From Thermoplasmata archaeon (GTDB lineage Archaea > Thermoplasmatota > Thermoplasmata > Lutacidiplasmatales > UBA184), in the NCBI GenBank assembly GCA_021790425.1, contig JAJYEA010000017.1, forward strand, positions 1 through 38,824: 38,824 nt of DNA, written 5' to 3'. Numbering within the stretch: position 1 is the first letter of the stretch; each line of letters starts with the position of its first letter. A model generated the notes under the pieces. The model saw only the letters and a program-made list of their open reading frames with translations, made no database searches and was not told the DNA's origin. Shown in pieces: positions 1 to 31,644 of the stretch. Made by a program: the position numbers and the translations under genes.

Positions 1-3000
1 CACCGAGGCGGGTGGGGGAGAGGGGGGCGTGGAGGGGGCCATGGTCCCCGCGCTCGCCGCCGGCGTCACCGCCGGTGGGGGCTGGGGGGAGGAGGGCGGC
101 GGCGCGGGGGGAGGGACGTTCCCGGACGGGGAGGGTGGGGCCGCCGGCGCCGGGGACGGCCCCGAGATGGGCACGATGGTCCCTGCGGGGGGAACCCCCG
201 ACGCGGAGGCGACCGCCGGGCTCCCGGAGCCCGAGGAGCCTCCCGACCTCCGAAGGGCGAGGATCACCGCCACGATCGCGAGCACGACCACCAGGGCGAT
301 GAGGAGGTATTGGAGGAAGGGGCTCAGGGGACCGCCCGCGCCGCCGTTGTTGCTGTTGTTGCTGTTGCTCGGGCTGCTCGACGGCACGAACGTCGCCGTG
401 AGCGTGCCGGAGCCCACCACGGACAGGGTCGTGGACGCGGTCGAGCCGGACTGGGCGGTCACGGCGCCCGAGGTGGACCACCCCGAGAACCGGTAGTTGG
501 GACAAGGCGATTCCGAGATCGAGTACGTCCCCCCGGGGACCGAGCGGTTCAGGGCCCCGGACCCGTAGGCCTGCCCGTTGAAGTCGATGGTCCCGCACCC
601 GGAGGGCCCGGTCACGAAGCTGACGGAGTACCCCCCCTTGCCCGACGAGCCGGCCACGAAGCTGGCCCGGAGCGTGCCGGCCCCCGAGACCTGGAGCGTG
701 GTCGACGCACTCGAAGTGTTGCCGACGGTGAGCCCGCCGCTCGCCGTCCACGACTGGAAGCCGTATCCCGAGCAGGCCACGGCGTCGATGGCGTAGATCG
801 TGGGGGCCACGGACGCATTGGCGGTGCCGTTGGGGTAGGGCTTCCCTGCGAATTGGATGGCCCCGCAGCTGGTCGGGCTCGTCGTGAAATTGAGCGCGTA
901 GGTGATGCTGCTCGAGGGTTGCTGGGCGAAGACGGCCGTCTCGTTCACCGGGCCGTTCATCGTGACGGACGCGGGGTTGAGCGGTCCCGTGTAGTTGCCG
1001 GCGCCCTGCCCCGACCATCCTTGGAAGAAGTAGCCGGCGCCGCTGGTGGCCGTGAGGCTCACGCCCAGCCCGGCGGCATACCACCCTTGCACCGCAGACA
1101 CGCTCCCCTCCGAGGAGGGGGCCGGGGTCGCCGTGAGGTAGTATTCCGCCGCGTAGGTGAAGGACTCGCTCGCGGCTCCTCCGAAGACGTTGAGGGTCCC
1201 GCTCGTCGTGGGGGTAGTGTACTCCACGCCCTGGCCGATGAGGACAGGGGCCTGGACCGTCCAAGGGATCCCGGTCCCGTTGGGCTCCAGGAAGACGATG
1301 TTGGGGCCGGTCGAGGCCGCGGTCTGCCCGTTCAGGGTGGCGCTCCACAGGGCCCCGGTGGGCAGTCCGGTCTCCGAGAAGGTGACCGGGTAGGCGTTGA
1401 CGTTCGTGGAGGAGAAGACCGCGAATTCGGTATCAGGGTAGAAGAGCGTTATCGACTGGGACGCGCTCGATCCCGTGTAGTTGGACAGGCCGCTCCCGTA
1501 CCAACCTCCGAAGAGGTATCCCGCCGTGGGCACCGCATCGAGCGTGACCGTGCTGCCGTAGGCGTACCACCCGCTCGCCGGAGAGGCCGTCCCGGCCCCG
1601 GCCGGGCTCACGGAAACGGCCAGGTAGACCTGGTCGGTGTACGTGACGCTGCCCGAATACCCGACGCCCGAGATCGTGATGCTCCCGGAGGCGGGGGAGG
1701 GACCCCACCGAACCCCGGCGGCCTGCGACAAGGAGTCCACGGTGTACGAATACGTGCCGTTGGGGAGGCTCAGGTAGTTCGTGGAGGAGGTGGAGGAGAC
1801 GTTGTTCCCGCCGATGTTGAGCCACCAGGAGGTGCCGTAGGGCAATCCGGTCTCGGTGAACGTGATGGGATAGCTGCCCACCGCCGAGAAGTTGGCCGTG
1901 AGGCTGCCCGACCCGATCACGTCGACCAGCGAGCTTGCCGACAGGGGGCTCGCGACCTGGACGCCCCCGGTGAAGGACCAGAAGGCGAAGCTGTAGCCGA
2001 CGCAGGGGATCGCCTGGGCCGACACGTTCCCGTGCGGCACGTCTGCGACGTACGCCCCGTCCGTGTAGCTCGCCCCGCCGAAGACGACGGTGCCGCAGGT
2101 CGTGGGACCCGTGTACACCTGCATCGTGTAGGTGCTGTAGGAGTTGAACTCGGCGGTCAGGACGCCGTTCCCGGTGACCGTCAGGGTTCCCGGGTCGCTG
2201 TACTGGCCGATCGAGAGATTGCCCGACGTGCCGACGTACCACGAGACCCAGGCCGCATCCGGGCAGGCCGCGGAGGACACCGCGTAGGAAGCGCCCGAGG
2301 TCACCGTGAGCGTCTGGCCGTTGACGTAGGGTATCCCGTTCACCACGGCGGCGCCACAGTTCGTTGGCGAGGTGTCGATCGTAAGGGTGTAGGTCGTCGT
2401 TCCGACGAAATTGGCGTAGACGGCGCCCCCCGTCGCGGAGACGTTGATCGACGTGCTCGCCAGGGCAGGGTTCGCGATGACCACCCCTCCCGTGGAGGCC
2501 CACCCGGTGAAGGCGAAGTTGGGACAGCTGGTCGCCACGAGCAACGCATTCCCGATCGCGAACGTAGCGGACTGCCCGTTCGTGTGGGTGGCCCCTCCAA
2601 GGGCGATGGCACCGCAGGTGGTCGGCGCGGTGCCGAAACTCACGGTGGGCTCGTTGTAGTGGGCGTACTCCGCCGTCAGGATGCCGGAGCCGCTCACGGT
2701 CAACTGGGAACTGGAGACGCTGATGTTGCCCTGCGTCCCCCAGGATCCGCCTCCCGTGGCGTTGCATCCCTGGAACCCGATGTCGTAGACGCCCGGGGAG
2801 AGCCCGAAGCTCTGGCCGGTGGTGTAGAGCACGGAGCCGAGATAGACACCACCGCAGTTCGTCGGGTCGGTCGCGAAGGTGATCGGATAGGTGGTCGTTC
2901 CGAGGTCGGTCGCCGCCAGCGTCCCGGTCGCGGACACAGTGATGGTGGCGAGGCTCTGGGTCGAGCTCGAGAGCGCGACCCCTCCGGTGGCATTCCACCC

Positions 3001-5799
3001 GTGGAACGCGAAGTTCGCGCACGGCAGGTCGTCGATGTGGTAGGTCCCCGGCGAGAGCGACGTGGAGGCCCCGTCACCCATCGAGATGTTGGCGAGGGAG
3101 ATCGACCCGCAGGTCGTGGGCTCGATCAGGGTGTGCACCGCGTAGGTGGTGTCGGAGGTGAAGAGCGCGGTCAGGTTCGCGAAGGAGCTCAGGGTGAGGG
3201 TCGTCGGGTTGCACGACTGGCAACCGACCGAGATGGCCCCGAGGTATTCCCAACCGTTGAAGTTGAAGTTCGTGCAGCTCGTCGCCGCGAGGTTGTACGA
3301 TCCGGGAGAGAGGCTCACCGACTGGCCGTCCGTGTAGATCGCACCGTTGAAGTTGATGGAGCCGCACCCCACCGGCCCGATGTGGAAGTCGAGCGCGTAG
3401 GTGGTGGTGGAGACGAAGGTGGCCACCAGGTAACCCGTGGCCGTTACGGTGAAGGAGTTCGCGGCGGTCCCGGCGCTCGAGCCCAGCGACACCCCCCCGC
3501 CCGGTGTCCAATAGCTGAACGAGTTCCCGCAGGGGTTCGGCGTCAGCGTGTAGACTACCCCGGGCTTGAAGGACGCGCTCTGGCCGTTCGTGTACGTCGT
3601 CGACGCGTTGACCGTGATCGAGCCGCAGGTCGTCGGTCCCGTCTGGAACGTTACCGAGTAGCTCGGGGCCACGTACGCGTACGTGACGTTGAGGTCGCCG
3701 TTCGAGTTCACGGTCACCGTGGTCGAGCTGCCGCTACCGCCCGGCACCGACAGCCCGGACGTGGTCGCCCAGCTGACGAAGGTGTAGTTCGCGCAGGGCT
3801 CGGCCGCGATGGGGTAGGTCAGTCCGCCGGCGACGGCGACCGTCTGGCCGGTCGTGTAGGTCCCGCCGTCGAACTCAATGCCGCCGCACGACATGGGAAG
3901 GGTGTTGAAGGTGACCGTTGCCGGCGTGCCGGCGATGAAGAGGGCCCCGAGGCTCGCGCTGCCGGTCAGCGTCATGGAAGTCGAAGACTTCCCCGGAGCG
4001 GTGACGGTGAGGCCGCCGCTGTAGCTCCACTGCGAGAAGGCGTATCCGCTGCAGGGCACGGCCGTGATGTTGTAGACGCCCTCCGAGAGGCCGCCCTGAT
4101 ACGTCCCCCCGTTCCCGTAGGGGATGCCGTCAATGTAGATCGTGCCGCAGGTGGTGGGTCCGGTGAAGGTGGAGAGCGAGTAGGACCAGTCGGACTCGAA
4201 GGTGACCTGGAGGGTCCCGGTCCCGCTCACGGTGATCGTGCTCGCCTGGCTGCCCGGGCTCGAGACACTGAGCCCGCTTCCGGGACCCGTCCCCCAGATG
4301 TTTCCTCCGAAGTTGTTGTGGGCGGCGAAATTGAGGCAGGGGACCGCATAGATGTCGTACGTCCCGGCCGCCACCGGAGTGGCCTGCCCGGTGGAATAGG
4401 TCTGCCCGTTGAACTCGATCTGGCCGCATCCCTGGGGACCGGTCACGAAGTTGACGAGGTAGGTCGTCGCGGCGGTGAAGTTTGCGGTCAGGGTGCCCCC
4501 GGCAGGTCCGACCGTCAGCAGGGTCCGGGCGGAAGAGGTGCTCGTCACCGAGAGCCCGGGGGCGGTCCCAATGTTCCAGCTGGAGAAGACGAACCCCGGG
4601 CAGGGGACGGCCGTGAGATTGTAGATACCCGGGGTAATCCCGGAGGCTCCCGTGGGATATCCCTGCCCGTTCGTGAAGGGGGCACCGTTCACGTAGATGG
4701 TGCCGCACGCGGTGGGACCCGTGGCGAAGCTCAGGGCGGTGGTCGAGTAGGAGTAGAACGTAACGGAGAGCGTCCCGTTCCCGGTCTCGGTCACCACCGC
4801 CGAGTTCCCGTTGGTCGTGCCTACGCTCAGTGAGCCGGAGCTGCCCACCGACCACTCGGGCCCGCCCCAGTAGTTGCTCGAGCTGAACCTGGGGCAGGGG
4901 TTTTCCCAGATGTGGTACTGGTACGATCCCCCGGACGCGACCGAGACCGTCTGCCCGTACGTGTAGTTGTTCCCGCTGAAGGTGATCGAACCGCACCCGA
5001 TCGGCCCGTTCTCCAGGGTCAAGGTGTAGGGGTTCGTGTTGAGGAAGGTCGCCGTGAGCGTCGTCCCATGGCTCAGGGTCACGGTCGTGCTGAGAGCGGA
5101 GAGGGACCCGAAGACCGCTCCCCCACCCGGGGCGGACCCCCAGCCGGCGAAGGACCAGCCGGTGCCGGTGCAGGGAAGCGCGGACACATTGTAGGTCCCG
5201 GGGGACAGGCCCGACAACGTCGCCCCGTCCCCGAGGACCGTCCCCGCGAGAACGGTGGAAGCCCCGCAGTTCATGGGCCCCAGATCCATCGCCGCGGTGA
5301 ACTGCGGGGGCGCCTGGAACTGAACGTAGAGGGTACCGGTCGCACTGACGGTCACCGAGGTGGAGGCGAGGCTCGGGGAGGCCACGCTGATCCCTCCCGA
5401 GCCGCCGTTGGCCCATTGCAAGAACCGGAACCCGAGACAGTTCTCGGCGGTGATCGGGTAGGTTCCCCCGGCCACCGTCAGCGTTTGTCCGCCGGTGTAA
5501 TTGACGCCGTTGAAGTTGATCGCCCCGCACGGGGTGGGCTCGGTGTCGAAGGTGACCACCACTCCGGCGCCGGGGGTCCGCGTCGCCCGGGGAACGACCG
5601 AAGCATGGACCGGGGGGCCAACGGTAACGTGCGGAGCCGAGTCCGCATTGATGATCGCCAACGTCGGGACCGAGAAACCGACCACAGCGACCCAGACGAC
5701 GACAAGGGCGACGCCCACTGCGGCGATAGACCCACGGTTGTTGCTCATTCGTCGGGCGATTCGAAGCGCGCCGTTCTCCGTAGACTCCCTGGCCATCAT
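1..5799 (-). CDS. Giant cell-surface protein with tandem two-cysteine InlB-like repeats (C-terminus cut by window edge)
   Basis: The minus frame appears open from the ATG pair at 5799/5796 to the left edge, so at least 1,933 residues; I translated long stretches and met no stop, but did not check every codon. A hydrophobic segment near residues 24-50 looks like a signal or anchor. The ectodomain is built of ~85-90 residue units, each with a CG(S/P/A)I-FNG motif, a GQ turn, a second Cys, then F-x-W and GG. About 16 such units are seen, at 5525, 5265, 4990, 4700 and so on down to 592. Between about 1130 and 1900 are more typical InlB B-repeat-like units and two FTETGLP modules, a motif common in Thermoplasmata and Sulfolobales secreted proteins. 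A membrane helix is encoded at about 250-300, followed by a Pro/Ser/Ala-rich cytoplasmic tail that continues off the window. NxS/T sequons are frequent. A role in adhesion or envelope structure is inference. ATG 5748 is an alternative start. Confidence 0.85.
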   Translation of the reverse strand, partial: MMARESTENGALRIARRMSNNRGSIAAVGVALVVVWVAVVGFSVPTLAIINADSAPHVTVGPPVHASVVPRATRTPGAGVVVTFDTEPTPCGAINFNGVNYTGGQTLTVAGGTYPITAENCLGFRFLQWANGGSGGISVASPSLASTSVTVSATGTLYVQFQAPPQFTAAMDLGPMNCGASTVLAGTVLGDGATLSGLSPGTYNVSALPCTGTGWSFAGWGSAPGGGAVFGSLSALSTTVTLSHGTTLTATFLNTNPYTLTLENGPIGCGSITFSGNNYTYGQTVSVASGGSYQYHIWENPCPRFSSSNYWGGPEWSVGSSGSLSVGTTNGNSAVVTETGNGTLSVTFYSYSTTALSFATGPTACGTIYVNGAPFTNGQGYPTGASGITPGIYNLTAVPCPGFVFSSWNIGTAPGLSVTSTSSARTLLTVGPAGGTLTANFTAATTYLVNFVTGPQGCGQIEFNGQTYSTGQATPVAAGTYDIYAVPCLNFAAHNNFGGNIWGTGPGSGLSVSSPGSQASTITVSGTGTLQVTFESDWSYSLSTFTGPTTCGTIYIDGIPYGNGGTYQGGLSEGVYNITAVPCSGYAFSQWSYSGGLTVTAPGKSSTSMTLTGSASLGALFIAGTPATVTFNTLPMSCGGIEFDGGTYTTGQTVAVAGGLTYPIAAEPCANYTFVSWATTSGLSVPGGSGSSTTVTVNSNGDLNVTYAYVAPSYSVTFQTGPTTCGSITVNASTTYTNGQSASFKPGVVYTLTPNPCGNSFSYWTPGGGVSLGSSAGTAANSFTVTATGYLVATFVSTTTYALDFHIGPVGCGSINFNGAIYTDGQSVSLSPGSYNLAATSCTNFNFNGWEYLGAISVGCQSCNPTTLTLSSFANLTALFTSDTTYAVHTLIEPTTCGSISLANISMGDGASTSLSPGTYHIDDLPCANFAFHGWNATGGVALSSSTQSLATITVSATGTLAATDLGTTTYPITFATDPTNCGGVYLGSVLYTTGQSFGLSPGVYDIGFQGCNATGGGSWGTQGNISVSSSQLTVSGSGILTAEYAHYNEPTVSFGTAPTTCGAIALGGATHTNGQSATFAIGNALLVATSCPNFAFTGWASTGGVVIANPALASTSINVSATGGAVYANFVGTTTYTLTIDTSPTNCGAAVVNGIPYVNGQTLTVTSGASYAVSSAACPDAAWVSWYVGTSGNLSIGQYSDPGTLTVTGNGVLTAEFNSYSTYTMQVYTGPTTCGTVVFGGASYTDGAYVADVPHGNVSAQAIPCVGYSFAFWSFTGGVQVASPLSASSLVDVIGSGSLTANFSAVGSYPITFTETGLPYGTSWWLNIGGNNVSSTSSTNYLSLPNGTYSYTVDSLSQAAGVRWGPSPASGSITISGVGYSGSVTYTDQVYLAVSVSPAGAGTASPASGWYAYGSTVTLDAVPTAGYLFGGWYGSGLSNYTGSSASQSITLFYPDTEFAVFSSTNVNAYPVTFSETGLPTGALWSATLNGQTAASTGPNIVFLEPNGTGIPWTVQAPVLIGQGVEYTTPTTSGTLNVFGGAASESFTYAAEYYLTATPAPSSEGSVSAVQGWYAAGLGVSLTATSGAGYFFQGWSGQGAGNYTGPLNPASVTMNGPVNETAVFAQQPSSSITYALNFTTSPTSCGAIQFAGKPYPNGTANASVAPTIYAIDAVACSGYGFQSWTASGGLTVGNTSSASTTLQVSGAGTLRASFVAGSSGKGGYSVSFVTGPSGCGTIDFNGQAYGSGALNRSVPGGTYSISESPCPNYRFSGWSTSGAVTAQSGSTASTTLSVVGSGTLTATFVPSSSPSNSNNSNNGGAGGPLSPFLQYLLIALVVVLAIVAVILALRRSGGSSGSGSPAVASASGVPPAGTIVPISGPSPAPAAPPSPSGNVPPPAPPPSSPQPPPAVTPAASAGTMAPSTPPSPPPASV

Positions 5800-5811
5800 G
5801 GACACTTCGGA

Positions 5812-5868: not shown

Positions 5869-6096
5869 TTTTACGACGCCCACCCAGGCTCTTTCGACGG
5901 GGCATGCCGGGATCTCGAGCGGTCATGGGGCTCTTCTGGGCAAATTCCATCTCATGGAGGACCCCAAGCGCCCTCGGCTCAACGTCAGTTACGAGCGAAA
6001 TGTCCTCCGCGGAGCGGAAGGATGATAAACCACCCCGACTATTCACTATTGGGTTTGGTGGCAGGAGAGCCCGTCAACTGGAACAATCGATGCGAA

Positions 6097-9000
6097 ATGA
6101 CATGGCATAGGGCACTCCGGAAGGCATTCCAGGTATCGTTCGCCCTGCTGCTCGTCGCGATCCCTGCTGCTCTCCTGACATCGCCTCTCGCTGCCCCCAC
6201 CGCACATGACGGCGCCGCGGTCCATGACCTCCGGTCCCTCGCACTTTCCCCGGCAAAGGCGAGCGCACCGTCCGCGGGGGACTTGCGCAGCGGTCCCTTC
6301 GGGCCGGCGCCGCGCGCGGGTACCCCGGTGGCCCATCTACCCATCACCATCGTGAACAATCAAGGGTCTCCCACTCCGCAACCGTTCCAGCAGAACCTGA
6401 GCGTGGATTCCCACCTCTGGAGCGCCTACATCAACGCCAACTGGTCCAACGTGGGGTTCCAATACGCGAACGGGACGAACATCCCGGCCTGGATCGAGGC
6501 CAACGCCACCAACACCGCGACGGACACGCCCGTGTGGCTCAAGCTCAACCAGATCCCCGCCGGCGGCTCGGTCACCATCAACATGAACCTCTATGCCAGC
6601 ACTTCCTATCTGCTCTCGGCGGCGGGGCCGATCGGGGAGGCCCCTTCCCTCTCCTCGGCGAGGTATGGAGCGGTCGATGACGGCCGGCAGGTCTTCAACT
6701 TCTACGATAACTTCGCCGGGACCAGCCTCGACTCCCAGTGGACGGTGGGCAGCGGGGGCATCGTCACGGTGAACAATGGGGTCACAGCGGGGCCCGGGAA
6801 CTGCTTCGCGGCGTCGTTCTCCTCGTCCTCGTACCAGATGTCCACCGGCGTGATCGACTTCAACGCCAGCATCTCCGCGGCGGGCGCGACCGGCACCTGC
6901 ACCATGGCGGCCATCGGACTCAGCCTCCCCTCGAACCCGAACGCCGACCGGGCGCTGGTCGGGGACTTCAACGACAAGATCGGAGTGTACTATGGAGTGT
7001 GCGCCACGAACTCGGCCACGGCCGGCTCGACCACCACCGAACCGTTGTCGCTCTTCGGGGCCTACCACGTCTACTCCGTGGGACTTCCCCCCACGCTGCC
7101 CCCCGTGACCGGGCAGGTGGACTACCGCTATCCGGTCAGCGTCACGAACGCAACGTACATGCCCACGCTCCCCCAGCCCCTCACCTTCATCGACCAAACC
7201 TCCACCGGCATCTCCGTCAACGACCAGTGGATCCGGACGCGCGCCTACCCGCCGAACGGGGTGGTGCCCACCGTCTCGTACGGATCCCTCGTGGGCAACT
7301 TCAGTGCCCCGACCCCGAGCGCCGCCTTCCTCGACGCCGACCAGGCGATGACCGTGACGGACACCCTCCCCACGAACGGGTCCGCCCCCTCCTACAGCTA
7401 CCAGTGGCTGGACTCCCAGGGGGGCGGCCCCTTCGGGGTCGCGACGATGTGTGGCGCCTCGGCGTCGGGCACCGGCGCGCCGGGAGCGAAGGTCACCTGT
7501 TCCATCCCGGCCGCGACGCTCACGCCCTCTTCCTACGTCTTCGAACTCCTCGCCACCCCGACGGGGGGAGGAGGGAGCCTGACCTCTCCTCCGTCCCCCA
7601 CGGTCCAGGTGAACACGGCCCTCGCCGCCGCCAGTCCCCCGGTTCCGAACGCGACGAGCCTGTCCGTCAACCAACCGCTCGCCGTGACCGACGCGATGCC
7701 CTCCAGCGGGACCCCTACCTACCAGTATGAATGGTTGGTCTCCCTGAACGGCAGTGCCTACTCGAAGGCCCTCCCGTGCGCGCTCTCCTCGGGCGCCGGC
7801 CTCGGCAAGGGGGCCGCCGTCACCTGCGACGTGGCCGGCGGTACCCTGAAGGCGAATTCCTCGTACACCTTCGAGCTGGGGGTGAACGACTCGGCCACGG
7901 TCCCGGAGTCCCGGGTCTCCTCCCCCTCCGCGACGGTGACCACGGGGCTACCCCTCGCGGCGGGCGTGCCCACCCCATCCCACCCGATACTCGACCTGGG
8001 GCAGAGCGTGGTGTTCACCTCGGCGCCCTCCGGGGGATTCCCACCGTACGCCTACCAGTGGTACGGAGGCACTTCGTCGACCTGTTCCACCGACCCCGCC
8101 CTCGCGGGGGCCACCGGGTCCCAGTACACGGCCCAGCCCGCGGCGAGCGGGTTCTATTGCTACTCCGTCACCGACAACGCGAGCCACCCGGTGACCGTCC
8201 GCTCGCCGATCACCGCCGTGACGGTGAATCCTCCGCTGCTGGCCAGCAACATCACCCCTTCGGCACCGACCCTCGCTCCCGGGCAGAACGTCACGCTCAC
8301 CTCGCACGCGACGGGGGGAACACCCACCATCGCGATCCAGTGGCTGGCGGGGAGCTCCTCCAACTGCAGCCTCGACACCCCGATCGGCGGGGCCACCTCG
8401 GCCACCCTGAATGCCGCGCCCTCCACGAGCACCTACTACTGCTACCGGCTGACCGACCAGTCGTCCGGGACCCCGGCCGCGCGCGCCCTCTCCGCCACGG
8501 ACCTCGTCACGGTGAGCGTGCCCCCGGGGGTGCCGGTGATCACGTCCTTCGGCGTGTCCCCCGCCAGTGTGGGGATCGGTCAGACCGCCACGTTCACGGT
8601 CGCCGTGACGAACGGGACCCCACCCTACGGGTACCTCTACGTCGGGCTCCCTTCCGGATGCCTCACCTCCAATGGCTCCTCGCTCTCCTGCACCCCCACC
8701 GGCTCGGGGACGTTCAACGTCAGCGTCCGGGTCGCGGACTCCCTGAACAAGACCGCCTCCGCGACGACCACGCTGACCGTCACGGGCGTCACCGTCACCC
8801 CGCTGACCGTCTCCCTCTCCGCGAACTCCACGAACCTGCCCGAAGGGTCGTCGGTCACGCTGACGGCCTCGGCGTCGGGAGGGACCGGGCCCTACCAGTA
8901 CCAATGGACGCTGAACGGCACCAACACCTCCGCCGGCCCGAACTACCAGCGGTGGGTCACGTCGGCCCTGAAGCCCGGGAACTACACCTTCGGCGTCTGG

Positions 9001-9822
9001 GTCACGGACACCGTCAACACCATGGCCCCGAGCCCCACCGTGAAGGTGACCGTCCGGTCCGTCGCGGCCCCGCCCAAGGGAGGGAGCCCACCTCCGTCCT
9101 CGAATCCCCTCACCGCCACCGTGGCCGGGGTTCACCTCTACCTCCTCCTCGCCCTCCTCATCGTGGCGATCCTCGTCCTGGTCGTCCTCCTGCTGGTGCG
9201 CCGCCAGCGTGACGCGAGCCAGCCGAAGTCGAAGTCCCGTGGTTCCTCCGCGACACCGGCGGTGGGGGCCAGCGCGGGCCCGCGCGCGTCCGTCGGACCC
9301 TCGACGTCCACTCCGTGGCCCCCGGTCGCACCGGTCGTCGCCGCGGCTCCTCGCACCGAATGGGACGAATCGGGGGAGGAGGAGAACGCGAGGCCCCCGA
9401 GCGCCCCGTCCCCGGCGGCGTCCTCCCCCTCGACCGAGACCCCGGCCGTCGAGGAGCGCCCGGCCCCCGAGCCTCCCTCCCCCGAGGGCCCGGTGGAGTC
9501 ACCTCCCGCAGAGCCACTTCCATCGGACGCGCCCCCGGTCGTCGTGGAGCGCCAGTTGGGACCCGAGCGATCGGAGGAGAATCCCTTCGAGGGGGACATC
9601 ACCCCGGAGGAGATCAACCCGAACGTCCAGCGCATCGACCCGCGCTTGCTGCAACCGATGGAGATGCGGGTCGACCAGGACCGGGGCACGGACCGGCGGG
9701 AGACGGCCGGGCCCAAGCCCACCGAGGCCGATGACCGCGCCCGGGCCCTGATGGAACGGGCGCAGCAGTCCCGGAAGCGGAAGGCGAAGCCCTCGGCTCC
9801 GTCCAAGGACGGGGGGCACTGA
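6097..9822 (+). CDS. Surface protein: signal peptide, DUF2341, Ig/PKD-like repeats, membrane helix, long Pro-rich cytoplasmic tail
   Basis: Counting from ATG 6097 it is 1,241 residues. That start puts a classic signal sequence (basic WHRALRKAF, then a hydrophobic core ending near SPLAAP) right at the N-terminus; in-frame starts at 6022 and 6058 are possible but would add a polar leader. Residues ~75-190 (LPITIVNN..., GGSVTINMNLYAS) match the DUF2341 pattern. A LamG-like stretch follows (DNFAGTSLDSQW). Then come about six ~85-95 residue Ig/PKD-like units with the repeating YxYQW core. A membrane helix lies at ~1013-1036. The last ~205 residues are Pro/Glu/Ser-rich and end in a basic patch. It is divergent from the 1-5799 gene and of similar architecture. 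Function in surface binding is inferred. Confidence 0.85.
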   Translation: MTWHRALRKAFQVSFALLLVAIPAALLTSPLAAPTAHDGAAVHDLRSLALSPAKASAPSAGDLRSGPFGPAPRAGTPVAHLPITIVNNQGSPTPQPFQQNLSVDSHLWSAYINANWSNVGFQYANGTNIPAWIEANATNTATDTPVWLKLNQIPAGGSVTINMNLYASTSYLLSAAGPIGEAPSLSSARYGAVDDGRQVFNFYDNFAGTSLDSQWTVGSGGIVTVNNGVTAGPGNCFAASFSSSSYQMSTGVIDFNASISAAGATGTCTMAAIGLSLPSNPNADRALVGDFNDKIGVYYGVCATNSATAGSTTTEPLSLFGAYHVYSVGLPPTLPPVTGQVDYRYPVSVTNATYMPTLPQPLTFIDQTSTGISVNDQWIRTRAYPPNGVVPTVSYGSLVGNFSAPTPSAAFLDADQAMTVTDTLPTNGSAPSYSYQWLDSQGGGPFGVATMCGASASGTGAPGAKVTCSIPAATLTPSSYVFELLATPTGGGGSLTSPPSPTVQVNTALAAASPPVPNATSLSVNQPLAVTDAMPSSGTPTYQYEWLVSLNGSAYSKALPCALSSGAGLGKGAAVTCDVAGGTLKANSSYTFELGVNDSATVPESRVSSPSATVTTGLPLAAGVPTPSHPILDLGQSVVFTSAPSGGFPPYAYQWYGGTSSTCSTDPALAGATGSQYTAQPAASGFYCYSVTDNASHPVTVRSPITAVTVNPPLLASNITPSAPTLAPGQNVTLTSHATGGTPTIAIQWLAGSSSNCSLDTPIGGATSATLNAAPSTSTYYCYRLTDQSSGTPAARALSATDLVTVSVPPGVPVITSFGVSPASVGIGQTATFTVAVTNGTPPYGYLYVGLPSGCLTSNGSSLSCTPTGSGTFNVSVRVADSLNKTASATTTLTVTGVTVTPLTVSLSANSTNLPEGSSVTLTASASGGTGPYQYQWTLNGTNTSAGPNYQRWVTSALKPGNYTFGVWVTDTVNTMAPSPTVKVTVRSVAAPPKGGSPPPSSNPLTATVAGVHLYLLLALLIVAILVLVVLLLVRRQRDASQPKSKSRGSSATPAVGASAGPRASVGPSTSTPWPPVAPVVAAAPRTEWDESGEEENARPPSAPSPAASSPSTETPAVEERPAPEPPSPEGPVESPPAEPLPSDAPPVVVERQLGPERSEENPFEGDITPEEINPNVQRIDPRLLQPMEMRVDQDRGTDRRETAGPKPTEADDRARALMERAQQSRKRKAKPSAPSKDGGH

Positions 9823-15242: not shown

Positions 15243-17231
15243 TCAGAAGGGTCCGGTTCGGATTCCGGGGGGGAGTTGCCGACGACGACGCCAGAGCAGA
15301 AGGCCCCCCACCACCGCGAGCGCGCCCGCGGCGACCAGCACGAACACGAGCTCGCCGGAGGTGTTGAGGTCCAGGAACGACGGCGAGCTTGAACCCGACG
15401 GAGGGGGCGGCGAGGGGCTCGAGACCGGACGGACCACCTCGATGGTGACGGCCGGGCTCGCCCCGAGTCTCCCGTTGCTCTCCGACACCCACCCGATGTA
15501 GGTGTAGTTCCCCGGGTGGGGCAGGGAGACCGTCAGGGGGGTGCCGATGCCCAGGGAGGTGTCGTTCGTGCCGTTGAGCGACCACGCCGCGACCTGGCAG
15601 GGGCAGGTCCCCGACGACCAGGAGAGGTTGAGCGCCACGGAGCGTCCGGCTTCGATCGTCGTGGCGTTCGCGACCAGGAGGACGACGATGGGAGCGGGGG
15701 TGTTGGCCGTCGTGCTGACCTCGACCACGACCGCCGCGCTCTCGAGCGACCGGGGCTCCGCATCCGTGACCCAGACCGCATAGGAGTAGTTCCCCGGATG
15801 CGCGAGGACCTCCGTCCAGCCCGCGCAAGCCCCGGAGGTGATGTTCGTGCCGTTCAGGCTGAGGGTACAGGCGTACGGGCCGACCCCTCCGGTGACCGAG
15901 GGGGTGAGCACCACCGGGTTTCCGGCGGAGACGTTCGTCGTGTCGGCCGCCAACCCCACGCCGAGAGGAGAGGAAGCGAAGACCCGGATGACCACCGCCG
16001 CGCTCTCGGCCGAGTGATTGGTCGCGTCGGCCGCCCAGAGCCGGTAGGTGTAGTTCCCGGCCGCGGGGAAGGAGGGGGTCAGGTTCCCGCAGGATCCCGC
16101 GGCGGTCGTGTTCGTGCCGTTCAGGTTCCAGGTGCAGGCATAGGTTCCCCATCCCCCCGAGACGGATGGGGAGAGGATGACCGATCCCCCCACCCCGACG
16201 CTCGTCCGGTTCGCGGCGAGACCTGCCTGGAGGTACGGGATGTACTCGAGGACCAGGGTGCCGTTCTCGGCGACAGGGACGTCGGGCGTGGCGTTGTGGA
16301 GCATGATGATGTGGTTGCCGTACTGGTAGCTGAACGAGCCGAACCAGTGGTTGGGGCAGGCGCTGGCCCGGGCCGGGTAGTCGCCGCCCGGCACCACGAC
16401 CGAGGTGCCGTTCGCCTGCGAGGTCCCGTTGAAGGTGAGCGGCCCGCACGACGCGGGGTCGATGAGGAAGCCCACCGTGAAGGGACCGGGGGGCGGTCCC
16501 TGGAGGCTGTAGGTGGCCGTGAGGGTCCCGTTCCCCTTGACCCACACGGTCTCCGGGTCCGCCCCGAGCTTGGGCAACTGGATCGCGCCGGTCGCGGTGA
16601 CCGTCGGCGGATAGTTGTACCCCGCGCACTTCGGCTCGGAGAGCGTGTAGTTGCCCGCGACGTAGTTCGCGGAGGAGCCATTCGCCCGGTCCAGCCCGCC
16701 GAGCTGGATGGGACCGCAGGCGGCGGGCTTGACGAAGAACCCCACGGCCGCTTCCTTGCCGCCCCAACCGGTCCATACATACCAGGCGGTCAGGGAGCCG
16801 GCCCCGGTCACGTTCACGATCGTCGAGGAGGAGGTGTTCCCGCGGGGGATGAGGATCCCCCCCGAGGCATTCCACTGGCGGAACGCGTAGTTGATGCAGA
16901 GGTTCGCGGTCACCATGTAGGTGCCGGAGGAATAGTTCCCCGTGGTGGCGTTCGCCTGCGCCGTGCCGTTGAAGCCGATCGGTCCGCAGGCCGACGGGAC
17001 GACCGCGAAGGACAGGAGGAAGGGACCCGTTGCTCCGGCGGTCGAGGGCACGGCCGCGGGAGTACCCGGGGGAGCCGAGACGACTCCCGTCGCGGGTCCG
17101 TGTCCGGTGGCGGGCAGAAGCGATCCGTGCGACGCGCCGATGCCGGGCAGCGAGGGCCACGGACCCAGGAGGAGGATGAGCACGATGGCCGTGGTCACGA
17201 CGCCGGTGGATCCCAGGGCGCGTACCCCCAT
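15243..17231 (-). CDS. Membrane-anchored surface protein with three CGP repeats and three Ig-like domains, 662 aa
   Basis: After an N-terminal hydrophobic segment (VVTTAIVLILLLGPW) come three or four repeats built around ACGPIGFNG / ACGPIQLGG / SCGPLTFNG with a second Cys in each, the same family as in the 1-5799 protein. Three Ig-like units follow, each with LSLNGTN or similar and a GNYTY strand. A Ser/Pro linker (SSPSPPPPSG) leads to a membrane helix (LVFVLVAAGALAVVGGLLLW) and a short basic end RRRRQLPPG. NxS/T sites are abundant. ATG 17231 is chosen because GATAATCC is centred ~28 bases upstream; a GTG at 17264 is the alternative and would overlap that box. Function unknown, probably surface contact or binding. 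Confidence 0.85.
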   Translation of the reverse strand: MGVRALGSTGVVTTAIVLILLLGPWPSLPGIGASHGSLLPATGHGPATGVVSAPPGTPAAVPSTAGATGPFLLSFAVVPSACGPIGFNGTAQANATTGNYSSGTYMVTANLCINYAFRQWNASGGILIPRGNTSSSTIVNVTGAGSLTAWYVWTGWGGKEAAVGFFVKPAACGPIQLGGLDRANGSSANYVAGNYTLSEPKCAGYNYPPTVTATGAIQLPKLGADPETVWVKGNGTLTATYSLQGPPPGPFTVGFLIDPASCGPLTFNGTSQANGTSVVVPGGDYPARASACPNHWFGSFSYQYGNHIIMLHNATPDVPVAENGTLVLEYIPYLQAGLAANRTSVGVGGSVILSPSVSGGWGTYACTWNLNGTNTTAAGSCGNLTPSFPAAGNYTYRLWAADATNHSAESAAVVIRVFASSPLGVGLAADTTNVSAGNPVVLTPSVTGGVGPYACTLSLNGTNITSGACAGWTEVLAHPGNYSYAVWVTDAEPRSLESAAVVVEVSTTANTPAPIVVLLVANATTIEAGRSVALNLSWSSGTCPCQVAAWSLNGTNDTSLGIGTPLTVSLPHPGNYTYIGWVSESNGRLGASPAVTIEVVRPVSSPSPPPPSGSSSPSFLDLNTSGELVFVLVAAGALAVVGGLLLWRRRRQLPPGIRTGPF

Positions 17232-17255
17232 GGCCGGGAGAGGCACCCGCGAGAG

Positions 17256-17263
17256 GATTATCA
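17256..17263 (-). promoter_or_regulatory. TATA-like box of the 662-aa surface protein
   Basis: TGATAATC on the minus strand is centred 28 bases before the ATG at 17231, favouring that codon over the GTG at 17264. Confidence 0.45.
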
Positions 17264-17312
17264 CGTTGCTGGGGGACGTCCGGCCCCTACCGGGGAACCG
17301 GCCGGCCCGCCG

Positions 17313-25747: not shown

Positions 25748-25757
25748 GACCCGGCAC

Positions 25758-25793
25758 GTGCATCAGCACATATAACTATATCGGCATCGATGC
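25758..25793 (-). promoter_or_regulatory. padR operon promoter with three nested dyads
   Basis: The promoter core ATATA-AC-TATAT (25770-25781) is itself palindromic and is centred ~28 bases before the padR ATG. GTGC-ATCA-GCAC (25758-25769) lies on its start-codon side and the perfect palindrome GCATCGATGC (25784-25793) on the other. PadR proteins bind dyads over promoters, so these are candidate autoregulatory operators. Confidence 0.5.
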
Positions 25794-25830
25794 ATGCCAC
25801 CAGACCGGAGGGCGGACCTTCCGTTCGACC

Positions 25831-28800
25831 TCACCCGTCGTCGGGGTCCGGCGGGGACCGGGGCCGGGGCTTCGGCTCGGAGTGCTTCTGGATCTCCCTC
25901 TCGAGGGCCCGGAGGACGTCGTCGTCGTAGCGCACCTCCTCCTCGGTCCCGAGCGGGGCGTCGCCGGAGCCCGTGAGGTGCAGGCGGACCTCGTCCGCCG
26001 TCGCCCCCCGCTCGGCCCAGACCCGGGCGGAGGAGAGGAGCTCGCTCACGTAGCGGTAGAGCTCCGCCTCGCCGATCTCGGCCTCGGCCAGCCGCTCCTT
26101 GAGCTCCCCGATGGTGATCCCCGACGGGGAGTCCTCGATCGCGCACACGATCATGGAGGTGACGGAGGTCCTCCGCTCGACGTCCTCCCGCGGATCATCG
26201 ACCGTCCCGGGCGGGAGGAGCTCGGGGAGGAAGTACGTCGTCCCGTCCTCCTCGGAGACCTTGCCGATCCGGCGCTCGTCGACCATCGTCGCGAGGCACG
26301 TCCGAACGGCCTCGGGGGGGCTCCCCGTGCGGGTCGCGACCGCGCTCACGAGGTTCCCCTCCGTGAGCCGGGGCGTCTCGGTGAGCGCGGCGAGCACCGC
26401 CGCCGGCAGGCCGTCTTCGGGGGTCTCCTCCTCGTCCTCCGCGGACTCCGACCGTCTCCGGGAGAGGACGAGCGCCATGACCGCGACCAGGACCACGAGG
26501 ACGACCACGAGATAGGGGACCAGCTCGATCAGGAAGGCGTACGTCGGGTTGTTGCCCCCGCCCGAGTGCGTCGTGTTCCAGTCCTGCACCAGGGACGCCA
26601 CGTCGACGGGCATCGTGTAGGCGACCGAGGTCCGCCCGTCCGAGTCCGAGACATGGAAGTTGAGGTAGGCGATCGCGTCCCGGTCGCTCACGTTGAGCCA
26701 GAGCACGTTGTTCCCGAGGGGGATCCAGGGGCTTGGCGCATGGGAGGCGTTCTGCCAGAGGTACTCCGCCACGGTCCCGTCCGGGTCCGACGTGGTCAGC
26801 GAGATATCGAGGGTCATCCCGGCCACTCCCCCGTGGATCCCGAACTGCAGCACGGTGTAGTTGGCCAGGAGGATCTGGGGCGGGATCGTTCCCACGACGA
26901 GCTGCCGGGAGGTCGCGGTCTCCCCGAAGGCATCCGTGACCGTGACCGTCACCGTGTTCGTGCCCGGGAGGGGGAAGGCCACCACGGTGTGGTTCACCGA
27001 GGTGTTCACGTCGGTGCCGTCCGCGGACCAGAGGTAGAGGTAGGGTCCCGTGCCGCCGCTGAGGCATCCGAGGCTCACCGTGAGGTTCGCCCCCGGCATG
27101 GGGACCCCCGTCAGGGTGGGGGCGCACGGGGCGTCGATCGTGGGGTGCACGAGGATCGTCGTGCTCGAGGAGGTGCTCGACCCGTAGACGTCGGTGGCGG
27201 TCATCGAGATCGAGATCGATCCCGACGCCAGGTTGGTGAGGTTGAGCCAGGGCTGCGTGAGGTTAACCCACGTCTGGTGGCCGGCCTCCGACTCCTGCCA
27301 GGAGTAGCGGAACGGGCCGTGGCCTCCCTGGAGCGTCACCGAGACGTCGTCCGACATCCCCTGGTCCACCACCGCATAGGAAACGCTCAGCCGGGGCGCC
27401 CCGGTGAAGTCTGGATCGACCGTGATGGAGAGCTGGAAGGTGGTGACCATCCCTTCGGCGTCGGTGAGGGAGAGCACCAGGTGGTTGGTCCCCGGGTCCG
27501 GCCAGGTGACCTGCCAGGCGACGTACCTGCTCGATGTACGGGAGGAGTCGACCACGTTCCCGTTGTCCTTCCAGACCCACTGGAAGTCGAGCGCGCCCCC
27601 CGACGCCGTGACGTTGAACACCGGGCTCGAGTTCGTGGGGAGCGTCGCGGAGAACCCGTTGGGAACCCCGTGGTACGAGATCGGGCCGTCCAGGATGTTC
27701 ACGTTCGTGATCGACGGGGGAGGGATGACCGTGATCCTAGCCTGGGCGGCCGCGACCGCCCCCTGCCCGTCGAAGGCGGTGACCCCGACGAGGCAGGGAC
27801 CCGTGGACGCCCAAGCATGCTGGGTCCACGCGCTCAGGGTGTTCTGGAAGGTCCCGTCCCCGAAGCTCCAGTTGAAGGAGAACGGCGCGAACCCGCCCGC
27901 CGTGAGGGCCGTGATGTTGACGAGGAGCCCCTGATCGGGGTTCGCCTCGGAGAAGACGAGCGACGGGAGCGAGAGGGCGCTCCGCACGGTGACGTTGATC
28001 TCGCCCCACGCCACTTTCCCGGAGCTGTCGGAGACCGTGAGATTGAGGACCTGGGGGCCCGTGGCCGCAGGGACCCAGGAGAGCCCCGGGCACTGCAACG
28101 AGCTGGTCGACAACTGCCCGAGGAGCTGCCCGTTCAGCCGGTACGAGCAGTCGTAGGGGGCCGTTCCTCCGCTCACCGCGCCGCTCAGGGTGACCGCGGC
28201 CCCGACCTCGGTGGTGAAGTTCCCCCCCGACGAGGAGTAGGTGCCCGCGGTGGCGGTGAAGGAGGCGACGGAGACATCGGGCACCACGCTGACGGTCATG
28301 TTCGCGAACCCCGCCCCAGGGACCGTGCTGTTCCAGCTGCCGTCGTAGCCGGCCCCGAGGGCGTACCGGACGGTGTACTCGAGGGTCTGCGTCCCGAGGG
28401 TCGGGAGCTGCCCGGGGCAGGAGACGCTCGTCACGGAGGGGACGAGCAGGACGCAGAGGTTCGTGGAGGTGGTCGTGTCGTTGACCCACACCCGGAACGG
28501 GGCGGATCCGCCGTTGAGGCTCCCCGTTAGGTCGATGGTCGCGCCCGCGTCCACCGTGCTCGGGCCCGTCAACGTGAGGTTCCCGGGCAGCGGGAAGACG
28601 GTGATGTCCCAGGAGACGGAGACGTTGTACCCGGTCGTATCCACGACGCTCATCGTGATGGGGTAGACCCCGGGCGCGTCGTACCAGTCACCGAAGCCCC
28701 ACGAGTCTTTCGTGTTCCACGTGTCGCACGTCACTCCGGTGAACTGGGAGCCCGGAGCGAGGACGCAACCCCGGTAGTTGTTGTCTCCCCCGGTCCACTG

Positions 28801-31644
28801 CATCAGGGGACCCACCACCCCACCCACGTACGTCGCGTTCACCGGCCAGTAGGGAGGATACTCCGCTTGCGAGTCGGGCGTGACGGAGATGATCTGGATG
28901 TCGTGCGACACGCCGAAGTAGACTGGTGTGCTGGGTCCCGACCAGCCGCCCCCGGAGTCCGAGACGTTCACCGAGACCGAGAAGGTCCCGTTCACCGTCG
29001 GGGTACAGTTCAGAAGGGGAGTGTTCTGGCTCGTACAGCCAAGGGGCAGCCCCGAGTAGGAGTAGGAGTAGGGAGGCGAGCCCCCGGTAGCGGTGCTGGC
29101 GAACTGGATCCTCTCGCCCACGTCCAGATTGGACCGGTTCTCGCTCAGGGAGACCGAAGTGGATGCAACGACGGTCAGGTTCAGCGACTTGGAGTGGACC
29201 ACGTACCCGTTCGAGTCCGTCACCGTAGCGTTGAGAGGAACGATGAAGGGGGATGCGAAGGTGCAAGTGAGGGTGCTAGTGGTTCCTCCGACGCAACCGG
29301 TCAGGGTCTTCCCCCAAGAGTAGGTGTACCCACCAGAGCCCCCCGTCACGACGACCGTGAGCGGATCCGCCACGTTCACGTCAACGGGATTGTAAAGGGC
29401 CCTGGGAGTCCCGACCGTCGGGTCCGGGTGCACGACGAAGTCCAACGTGGCGCTCGTGGTCCGGTACCCGTTCGAGTCGTTGACGGTCAGGACCACGGGA
29501 TACGTTCCCGCCGTGAGCGTGGTACAGTAGGGGGTCGAGCTGTCGAGCAGGGTGCACCCGAGGCCCGGGGCGGACCATGAGAACCAGTAGGTGCCCGACC
29601 CGCCGGTCACGTTCGTCTCGAGCAGGGCCGTCTGTCCGGCGTCGGTGCTGGAGACGTTCGAGTGGATGGTGACCGACGGGTCCGGGAAGACGTCGAGCGA
29701 GGCCAAGCCCTCGGTGACGACCCCGAGGGAATCCTTCTCGCTGGCCGAGAGATTGACCACGCCCGCGACCCCGGGATCCGGGGTGCAGGACTCCACGCTT
29801 CCCGAGCTCGAGCAGACCCAGTAGGCGGGGTGGGGGAGCCAGGACAGGGTGTAGGGACCCGATCCCCCGGAGGCGCTGGCCGTCAGGTTGACCTCCTGCC
29901 CGTCGTCAAGGCTGGCCCGGGAAGCGCGGACCGTGACCACGAGCGGCGGGCTCAGGGCCAGAGAGATGACAGGCGAGCCGACCGACGCGATGGGCGTGCA
30001 CTTGAGGTTCTCCGTGATGCACGAGGTGAGCGTCACGTTCGCCGCCGTGGACCCGTTCTCCTCGGCCACGCAGGAGAAGGAGCTGTGGGTCGTGTTGGTG
30101 CAGGGGAAGTACCCGTGGTCCACCGTCCAGGACGCCTGATAGGGGAAGTATCCCCCCGTTCCGGAGACGCTGAAGTTCACCTGCTGCCCCTGGTCGGTGG
30201 CCGTCGGGGAGACCGTGGCCGACGCGATGGAGAGGGGAGGAGGGTAGGCCCAGTCCCGCGCGTTCCACGCGATCCCGGTGAGCGGGTCGCTGCTGGCGTA
30301 GAGCATCACCGAGTAGTGGTCGGCGGTGTCGTAGGCTCCCGCGACGGAGTACTCCAACGCCTGCGGCGGGTCCACCGTGGGGGCATCCTGGCTCCACGAG
30401 CCGTTCACGTACCGCCAGGTGTGGGGGGTGACGGACCCGCTCGAGTCGGTCACGCCATAGTAGAGGACCGAGTCCGAGTTGGGGTCGAAGACGAGGAGCG
30501 GGGCGCTGAGCAGAATGCTCTTGGGGTTGGTGGGCGGTCCGCCCGCGAGGGTCTGCCACGAATACCCTGTCGCGGACGCCGGGTCGGTCATGGTCCACGC
30601 GGCGTTCCCGTCCCAGACGTAGAGATCGCCCCCGTCCGGACCGCAGGTGAGGGAGGGCGGGACATTGTCGTAGGCCCCCGTCACGTTCGCGAAGACCTGC
30701 GTCCAGGTGCCGCCGGCGAAGGTCCAGGTGTAGAGCACGGAGGACGGGCCCACCCCCACAAGAACGGCGTGGGAGGTCCCGGCCGCCATCGCCACGTAGT
30801 TGACGTGGAGCGAGGTGGGCGTCGCCCCGACGAACGTGGGGGTGACCGAGGTCCAACCGCCGGATGGCGTGAACTCCCAGGTCGATCCATCGAACGTCGT
30901 GTTGGGCTGCCCGAAGGTCGTGGTCCCGCCGTAGAGCACGAGGTAGCCGTCGAGCGGGTCATACCCGAGGGCGGCATCGTAGCGGGGGGAGGGGGAGACC
31001 GCGGGGGAGAGCTTGGTCCAGGCTCCGGCCTTGTACTCCCACGTGGTGGAGACCAGGGAATCGCTCGTGAGATTGTATCCCCCGAAGAGGATCACGGCCC
31101 CGGAGGAGGGATCGTAGGCCATGGCGGCCCCCTCCAGCGGACCCGGGGTGGCCCCGGAGCCCACTTGCTGCCAGGAGTCGTACGCCCAGGGGTAGACGGT
31201 GGGGAAGGTGATCTTCGGGGACGGAGCCAGGACCCGCCGGGAGGGGCTCGGGGCTGGGACACTCCCCGAAGGAGGAACGGTCGGGACCGCCGCGGGAGCG
31301 GATCGAACCGGGGACGTCGTCGGGAGGACAGACGGAACCGCGGGAGAGGAGGGGGGAATGGGACGCGGCGGAAGGGACGTGGGCGAAGCGACCGGAGGAG
31401 ACGGGGAGGGAGACGACAGGGCCGCGGCACCCCGCTGCATCACTCCCTCCGGGGAGGTCCGGGGCGCGACCACCGGAGCGAGACGGAGGGGCGCGACGGA
31501 GGTCACCGGACCGGGGTTGGAAGAGACGGTTCCCACGAACCCCTGGGCCACCAGCGACGTCAGCAGAAAAGAAAGCACCAGGCAGGCAGTCTGCGCGAAC
31601 CCGTGGGAACTCACGCGCATGACCTCCTGCAACGAGCGTGCCAC
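25831..31644 (-). CDS. Giant membrane protein: Kelch-like and PKD-like ectodomain, one membrane helix, cytoplasmic tail with two winged-helix-like domains (1937 aa)
   Basis: The N-terminal hydrophobic segment (CLVLSFLLTSLVAQGF) is followed by a Pro/Ser/Val-rich linker to ~150. Residues ~160-460 carry Kelch-type repeats (AMAYDPSSGAVILFGGYN, ALGYDPLDGYLVLYGG, STWEYKAGAW), suggesting a beta-propeller. A long series of ~90-residue PKD/Ig-like units with GGSGxYxFSW cores fills to ~1690. The single membrane helix is ~1707-1727 (VPYLVVVLVVLVAVMALVL). The ~210-residue cytoplasmic tail contains LPAAVLAALTETPRLTEGNL... to YFLP (~1745-1807) and SMIVCAIEDSPSGITIGELK... to VRLHLTG (~1830-1892), each read as a winged helix. 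This is the layout of a membrane-bound regulator, which is inference. Start GTG 31644; ATG 31620 is an alternative. Confidence 0.85.
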   Translation of the reverse strand: MARSLQEVMRVSSHGFAQTACLVLSFLLTSLVAQGFVGTVSSNPGPVTSVAPLRLAPVVAPRTSPEGVMQRGAAALSSPSPSPPVASPTSLPPRPIPPSSPAVPSVLPTTSPVRSAPAAVPTVPPSGSVPAPSPSRRVLAPSPKITFPTVYPWAYDSWQQVGSGATPGPLEGAAMAYDPSSGAVILFGGYNLTSDSLVSTTWEYKAGAWTKLSPAVSPSPRYDAALGYDPLDGYLVLYGGTTTFGQPNTTFDGSTWEFTPSGGWTSVTPTFVGATPTSLHVNYVAMAAGTSHAVLVGVGPSSVLYTWTFAGGTWTQVFANVTGAYDNVPPSLTCGPDGGDLYVWDGNAAWTMTDPASATGYSWQTLAGGPPTNPKSILLSAPLLVFDPNSDSVLYYGVTDSSGSVTPHTWRYVNGSWSQDAPTVDPPQALEYSVAGAYDTADHYSVMLYASSDPLTGIAWNARDWAYPPPLSIASATVSPTATDQGQQVNFSVSGTGGYFPYQASWTVDHGYFPCTNTTHSSFSCVAEENGSTAANVTLTSCITENLKCTPIASVGSPVISLALSPPLVVTVRASRASLDDGQEVNLTASASGGSGPYTLSWLPHPAYWVCSSSGSVESCTPDPGVAGVVNLSASEKDSLGVVTEGLASLDVFPDPSVTIHSNVSSTDAGQTALLETNVTGGSGTYWFSWSAPGLGCTLLDSSTPYCTTLTAGTYPVVLTVNDSNGYRTTSATLDFVVHPDPTVGTPRALYNPVDVNVADPLTVVVTGGSGGYTYSWGKTLTGCVGGTTSTLTCTFASPFIVPLNATVTDSNGYVVHSKSLNLTVVASTSVSLSENRSNLDVGERIQFASTATGGSPPYSYSYSGLPLGCTSQNTPLLNCTPTVNGTFSVSVNVSDSGGGWSGPSTPVYFGVSHDIQIISVTPDSQAEYPPYWPVNATYVGGVVGPLMQWTGGDNNYRGCVLAPGSQFTGVTCDTWNTKDSWGFGDWYDAPGVYPITMSVVDTTGYNVSVSWDITVFPLPGNLTLTGPSTVDAGATIDLTGSLNGGSAPFRVWVNDTTTSTNLCVLLVPSVTSVSCPGQLPTLGTQTLEYTVRYALGAGYDGSWNSTVPGAGFANMTVSVVPDVSVASFTATAGTYSSSGGNFTTEVGAAVTLSGAVSGGTAPYDCSYRLNGQLLGQLSTSSLQCPGLSWVPAATGPQVLNLTVSDSSGKVAWGEINVTVRSALSLPSLVFSEANPDQGLLVNITALTAGGFAPFSFNWSFGDGTFQNTLSAWTQHAWASTGPCLVGVTAFDGQGAVAAAQARITVIPPPSITNVNILDGPISYHGVPNGFSATLPTNSSPVFNVTASGGALDFQWVWKDNGNVVDSSRTSSRYVAWQVTWPDPGTNHLVLSLTDAEGMVTTFQLSITVDPDFTGAPRLSVSYAVVDQGMSDDVSVTLQGGHGPFRYSWQESEAGHQTWVNLTQPWLNLTNLASGSISISMTATDVYGSSTSSSTTILVHPTIDAPCAPTLTGVPMPGANLTVSLGCLSGGTGPYLYLWSADGTDVNTSVNHTVVAFPLPGTNTVTVTVTDAFGETATSRQLVVGTIPPQILLANYTVLQFGIHGGVAGMTLDISLTTSDPDGTVAEYLWQNASHAPSPWIPLGNNVLWLNVSDRDAIAYLNFHVSDSDGRTSVAYTMPVDVASLVQDWNTTHSGGGNNPTYAFLIELVPYLVVVLVVLVAVMALVLSRRRSESAEDEEETPEDGLPAAVLAALTETPRLTEGNLVSAVATRTGSPPEAVRTCLATMVDERRIGKVSEEDGTTYFLPELLPPGTVDDPREDVERRTSVTSMIVCAIEDSPSGITIGELKERLAEAEIGEAELYRYVSELLSSARVWAERGATADEVRLHLTGSGDAPLGTEEEVRYDDDVLRALEREIQKHSEPKPRPRSPPDPDDG

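Follow-up and report, generated by a model that had tools for sequence, protein, structure and literature searches.

The 1937-residue protein encoded at positions 25831..31644 of the window, the 38,824-nucleotide stretch of archaeal DNA that we analysed, carries behind its single membrane helix a tail of two acidic winged helices, and the second of these (wH2), together with a short motif containing an invariant aspartate, recurs across the order Lutacidiplasmatales. Starting from the computed fold of this tail, its topology signals, its acidity and the conservation of wH2 and its motif, we tentatively propose an undescribed receptor family, with about one member per genome across the order, in which the acidic winged helix and the invariant-Asp peptide would form a docking tail, a DNA-reading fold turned receptor tail. 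The family marked by wH2 and the invariant-Asp motif is new here; a literature search, with most subscription journals outside its reach, turned up no account of PKD proteins that have a winged-helix tail.

Results

A PKD surface protein with a single membrane helix

The gene lies on the minus strand, as do all of its features given below, and starts with GTG. Verification of the open reading frame confirmed the length and frame given in the initial annotation, as well as the signal-like hydrophobic segment at the N-terminus (hydropathy; residues 15-38, 31531..31602). A putative Kelch-like propeller region, as annotated earlier, occupies residues ~150-470 (30235..31197); the E-values of PF24981 (E 3.5e-7, residues 186-317) and PF24681 (E 1.2e-4) are significant, but both models stay below the curated Pfam cut-offs. 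This region is 34% identical to the corresponding region of a homologue with a similar tail (L025) and gave no phmmer match against PDB sequences. Residues ~471-1690 (26575..30234) form an array of PKD/Ig-like units matched by the Pfam models PKD, PKD_4 and SprB, of which PKD (PF00801; E 1.2e-9, 38.5 bits against a cut-off of 23.5) and SprB exceed their cut-offs, in agreement with the PKD-like units described before. With a signal segment and a PKD domain above the Pfam cut-off, the protein is classed as a PKD surface protein.

One membrane helix is predicted in the whole protein, at residues 1708-1726 (26467..26523; mean hydropathy 3.13), a feature shared with transmembrane transcription regulators (TTRs). 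Since the basic stretch SRRR (1728-1731) comes directly after the helix, the 210-residue tail is, by the positive-inside rule, cytoplasmic. Sequons of the N-x-S/T type number 40 in the ectodomain and none in the tail. Both sequence rules thus place the tail inside the cell and not outside it, and the single-pass topology first proposed stands.

The window encodes three more large surface proteins, each of which has a C-terminal membrane helix, while no winged helix was recognised in any of them; they lie at 1-5805 (minus strand, extending past the window end), 6022-9822 (plus strand, with a long charged tail) and 15243-17264 (minus strand).

The tail contains two winged helices

We modelled the tail with AlphaFold2 from an alignment of five sequences, the window protein and four relatives (mean pLDDT 74). 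The first winged helix (wH1, residues 1742-1805, 26230..26421, net charge -5) is predicted with pLDDT values of 83-92 and comprises helices at 1742-1756, 1762-1773 and 1777-1789 and strands at 1759-1761, 1794-1798 and 1801-1805. The second, wH2 (residues 1818-1890, 25975..26193, net charge -6), is the family-defining domain, supported by AlphaFold2, Foldseek and the family profile; its helices span 1818-1837, 1845-1855 and 1859-1871 and its strands 1875-1878 and 1887-1890, with pLDDT mostly 83-90, and a separate model of wH2 alone agrees with the whole-tail model. A C-terminal helix follows at residues 1904-1922 (25879..25935) and carries the family motif (VRYDDDVLRAL), in which the alignment identifies D1907 as the invariant Asp.

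Both domains show the three helices and beta hairpin that define the winged-helix superfamily, and winged-helix proteins dominate the Foldseek match lists of wH1 and wH2 alike when searched against the PDB. The matches include DNA-binding proteins (MecI, F93, BigR, CzrA, MarR, PadR) and protein-binding ones (cullin WHB, ESCRT-II, ScpB, RPC34), and do not separate the two kinds of winged helix; the tail had no phmmer match among PDB sequences. The winged-helix fold of the tail is settled as far as prediction allows. The two winged helices read from the sequence at residues 1745-1807 and 1830-1892 are therefore confirmed as to fold, while the second begins at 1818 in the model.

The tail defines a family across the order

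A search for related loci with the window tail alone gave no matches, and a family alignment was required. Homologues with the two-winged-helix tail were found in genomes G004 (L024/L060), G007 (three proteins, L021-L023, identical with L059, L061 and L058) and G012 (L025 and L050); two of the genomes with such homologues were deposited as MAGs DX1.bin10 and FK3.bin56. The window's own genome (G000) encodes a second PKD protein with this tail, C97 (L020), whose N-terminus is cut by the contig end and whose tail is ~64% identical to that of G012:C92. Tail homologues are present in genomes of the same genus and of the same family, and the tail is, by its dN/dS (0.21-0.24 in three pairs, 0.54 in one), under purifying selection; for these two reasons the two-winged-helix tail is more than chance.

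Searched at E 0.01, a profile of wH2 and the C-terminal motif matched 59 of the order's 106 genomes. A broader profile, with up to 12 candidates scored in each genome, matched at least 65 of the ~105 genomes in family f1 with E-values no higher than 1e-6, as counted from the matches listed. Among these matches wH2 and its motif nearly always occur in one protein per genome, and those listed from elsewhere in the class, outside family f1, are marginal only. Lutacidiplasmatales has been described as a single family of acidic habitats (PMC9287336). Across the family, wH2 is ~16-26% identical to that of the window protein. The search that the initial annotation had suggested, for other archaeal proteins with a PKD-type ectodomain, one helix and this tail, thus recovered a family wider than the annotation had seen. 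Two sets of candidates were discarded: G329:C45 (L055), which matched the first profile, is a helicase-like ORF, and several tail matches among L027-L032 have only the common membrane helix and basic residues, with no winged helix.

We examined twenty members in their gene neighbourhoods; 19 or 20 of these members are of a type with one winged-helix domain. All 20 have a large ectodomain and one C-terminal membrane helix; their tails are 113-171 residues long, carry a net charge of 0 to -20 and in most cases begin with basic residues. The module consists of E-E-E-L-x-R in helix 1, a Glu starting helix 3 (21/26), an aromatic residue in helix 3 and a Gly after it; beyond a linker comes [VIP]-x-[LVI]-D-[EP]-x-[AV]-L, the Asp of which is invariant in all 26 aligned sequences. 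Of 31 tails, 24 contain the motif pattern, against about one of 31 after shuffling. None of the 32 other PKD proteins of the window's genome contains it, which is the more useful control because the pattern was derived from those same 31 tails, making the test partly circular. A one-domain member from G010 also combines Kelch and PKD units, so an ectodomain like that of the window protein is not confined to the two-domain type.

The window's genome holds 72 PKD matches in ~34 ORFs, and the profile of the winged-helix tail picks out just two of these ORFs, the window protein and C97; the remaining PKD proteins have mostly short Pro-rich or zinc-ribbon tails. In four of them (L134, L139, L141 and L143) a zinc-ribbon-like cytoplasmic end (for example CFVCGSELQGNFCPSCNMSW) follows a long Pro-rich tail. 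A 1232-residue ORF of the same genome (L144, G000:C136) has a weak PKD match, a winged-helix-like stretch near the C-terminus and no clear membrane helix, and may be something else.

DNA or protein as the ligand of the tail

The median net charge across the family is -4 for wH1 and -3 for wH2, whereas 15 soluble TrmB/ArsR-type winged helices encoded in the same genome have a median of +5 (p 4e-5 for wH1 and 9e-6 for wH2 by Mann-Whitney test, values that overstate the difference because related sequences do not count as independent samples). In wH2 the median charge of the helix-3 segment is -2 (as in EPAEVADWLASLLTEG and TDGEVAEWVGSLVTEG); helix 3 of wH1 is neutral to near-neutral, and a TV-x-TQL helix in the wH1 of relatives recalls MecI/BlaI. 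As a positive control, the DNA-binding domain of E. coli CadC has a net charge of only 0 to +1 (+1 for residues 1-107); the lack of positive charge is therefore no proof against DNA binding. Judged by charge, a DNA-reading role becomes less probable, with wH1 a better candidate for it than wH2, and the acidity of the tail argues against promoter binding.

No Pfam DNA-binding model exceeded its cut-off in the window tail or in its relatives, nor did any NCBIfam model in the window tail; weak sequence matches to Penicillinase_R, MarR, TrmB, Rrf2, HTH_metalloreg (9e-5) and Z-alpha were seen in the tail or its relatives. Curated models thus recognise no DNA-binding domain in the tail; such a domain is one of the features that define TTRs. 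The initial annotation had read the protein as a one-piece membrane regulator acting on DNA: its fold, its topology and the contrast in ectodomain size hold, whereas the action on DNA finds no support, given the acidic domains, the neutral to acidic segment that would read DNA, the missing curated match and the mixed fold matches.

Gene neighbourhoods

A padR gene (PF03551, E 3e-15) and an ABC-2 transporter lie downstream of the 1937-residue gene on the same strand, and their operon had been suggested as a target of the tail, adjacency being the one argument in its favour. We rejected this target: among the relatives whose flanks were read (2.4 to 8 kb) neither padR nor the transporter lies nearby, and the upstream regions of padR and of the 1937-residue gene have no 9-mer or longer word in common, their two common 8-mers being within the range of shuffled sequence. 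The region upstream of padR (25748-25830) contains a TATA-like element at -28 and the palindromes GCATCGATGC (25784) and GCACGTGC (25754), a possible operator of PadR itself.

Among the family members examined, no neighbour gene is constant across genera. Neighbours are constant only within genera, namely ThpR/LigT, SHMT and a coupling-protein-like ATPase in 12 genomes, and a DNA methylase upstream in genus g3; we dropped them as functional clues, since they are not constant between genera and apparently belong to other transcription units. At L193:2662-5379, and at the equivalent position in 11 other genomes (genera g5 and g7), the ATPase (TrwB_AAD_bind, E 8e-9) is encoded upstream of the family member, together with a LigT/2'-5' RNA ligase-type gene, and a glycosylase-like gene, recognised by eye only, lies between on the opposite strand. 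The g3 methylase, of the N6/N4 type, ends ~90 bases before the open frame of the family member (L178:4552-5328 in G010; the cluster is also found in G009 and G012).

Discussion

The ligand of the tail is most likely a protein, and the tail would serve signalling or anchoring. On the reading that we place first, and to which we give an even chance of being right, the window protein spans the membrane once and acts as a receptor or adhesin at the cell surface, with a tail that docks on a protein in the cytoplasm. The propeller and PKD array would reach out of the cell, the acidic wH2 and the short invariant-Asp helix would form the docking module, and docking would couple events at the cell surface to the cell interior; in the two-domain subfamily, to which the window protein belongs, wH1 would sit between the membrane and this module. 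We favour docking because wH2 and its motif are kept in at least 65 of ~105 genomes, the domains are acidic, the Asp is invariant, protein-binding winged helices are among the fold matches and such a tail is rare among PKD proteins. Against docking stand the many DNA-binding regulators among the fold matches and the weak sequence matches to DNA-binding families, as well as the failure to find a partner protein or a neighbour constant across genera.

The main rival, our second choice and possible rather than probable, is that the protein belongs to the transmembrane transcription regulators as Demey et al. (2023) use the term: its ectodomain would read a ligand while one or both winged helices, most plausibly wH1, would bind promoters from the membrane. 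Bacteria and archaea commonly have membrane regulators with one helix (PMC10269533), and the single pass, the tail inside the cell and the fold fit such a protein, as do the MecI/BlaI-like helix and neutral third helix in the wH1 of relatives and the near-neutral charge of CadC; however, the domains are acidic family-wide, a nearly invariant Glu starts helix 3 of wH2 and no operator or target neighbourhood is conserved. A tail that changes fast and serves as a passive anchor, binding nothing specific, would suit the low identity of wH2 across the family and the dN/dS of 0.54 in one pair, but the fold and motif kept in at least 65 genomes, the low dN/dS of the other three pairs and the invariant Asp make this improbable. 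Least probable of all, and very unlikely in our judgement, is an anti-regulator in which the acidic winged helix would imitate DNA and keep a DNA-binding regulator membrane-bound as long as nothing engages the ectodomain; acidic winged helices in an acidic tail are what it calls for, but no partner was found and no regulator is constant in the neighbourhood.

Little is known of how archaea relay information inward from surface proteins of very large size. With about one copy per genome in the order, the conserved tail provides a defined target, a module of 100 residues of which one is invariant. Should the tail bind a protein, as docking would have it, it would represent a new receptor-tail design in archaea; should it bind DNA, the protein would be a membrane regulator whose ectodomain is unusually large.

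Comparison with known systems

Both bacteria and archaea commonly have membrane-bound one-component regulators, most of them single-pass (Demey et al. 2023, PMC10269533). The family proteins may work like them. The transmembrane transcription regulators ToxR, CadC and TcpP (PMC10269533) likewise combine one membrane helix with a cytoplasmic winged helix and an outer sensor part. In contrast to theirs, the winged helices described here are C-terminal, tandem, acidic and not of the OmpR type, with DNA binding putative; the N-terminal OmpR/PhoB-type winged helix of the ToxR/CadC family is absent, and Pfam gave no Trans_reg_C match. The ectodomain of ~1700 residues is far larger than in known membrane regulators such as ToxR and CadC, as had been pointed out.

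ArnR and ArnR1 of Sulfolobus, archaeal membrane regulators that have been studied biochemically (PMC6396743), are also membrane-bound and contain an HTH domain. They have this domain at the N-terminus, a HAMP and sensor region, two C-terminal membrane helices and no large ectodomain, whereas the window protein has the reverse order, a single C-terminal helix and no such N-terminal HTH or HAMP domain.

In fold, wH1 and wH2 resemble the winged helices of MecI/BlaI and MarR/ArsR; these are soluble dimeric repressors, and the sequence matches to them stay below the cut-offs. ESCRT-II, cullin WHB, RPC34 and ScpB, which use tandem or single winged helices for protein contacts, match the tail by fold only and are not membrane receptor tails. 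Archaeal PKD surface proteins share the signal, the PKD array and the C-terminal membrane helix, and it is in its tail that the window protein is unlike most others of its genome.
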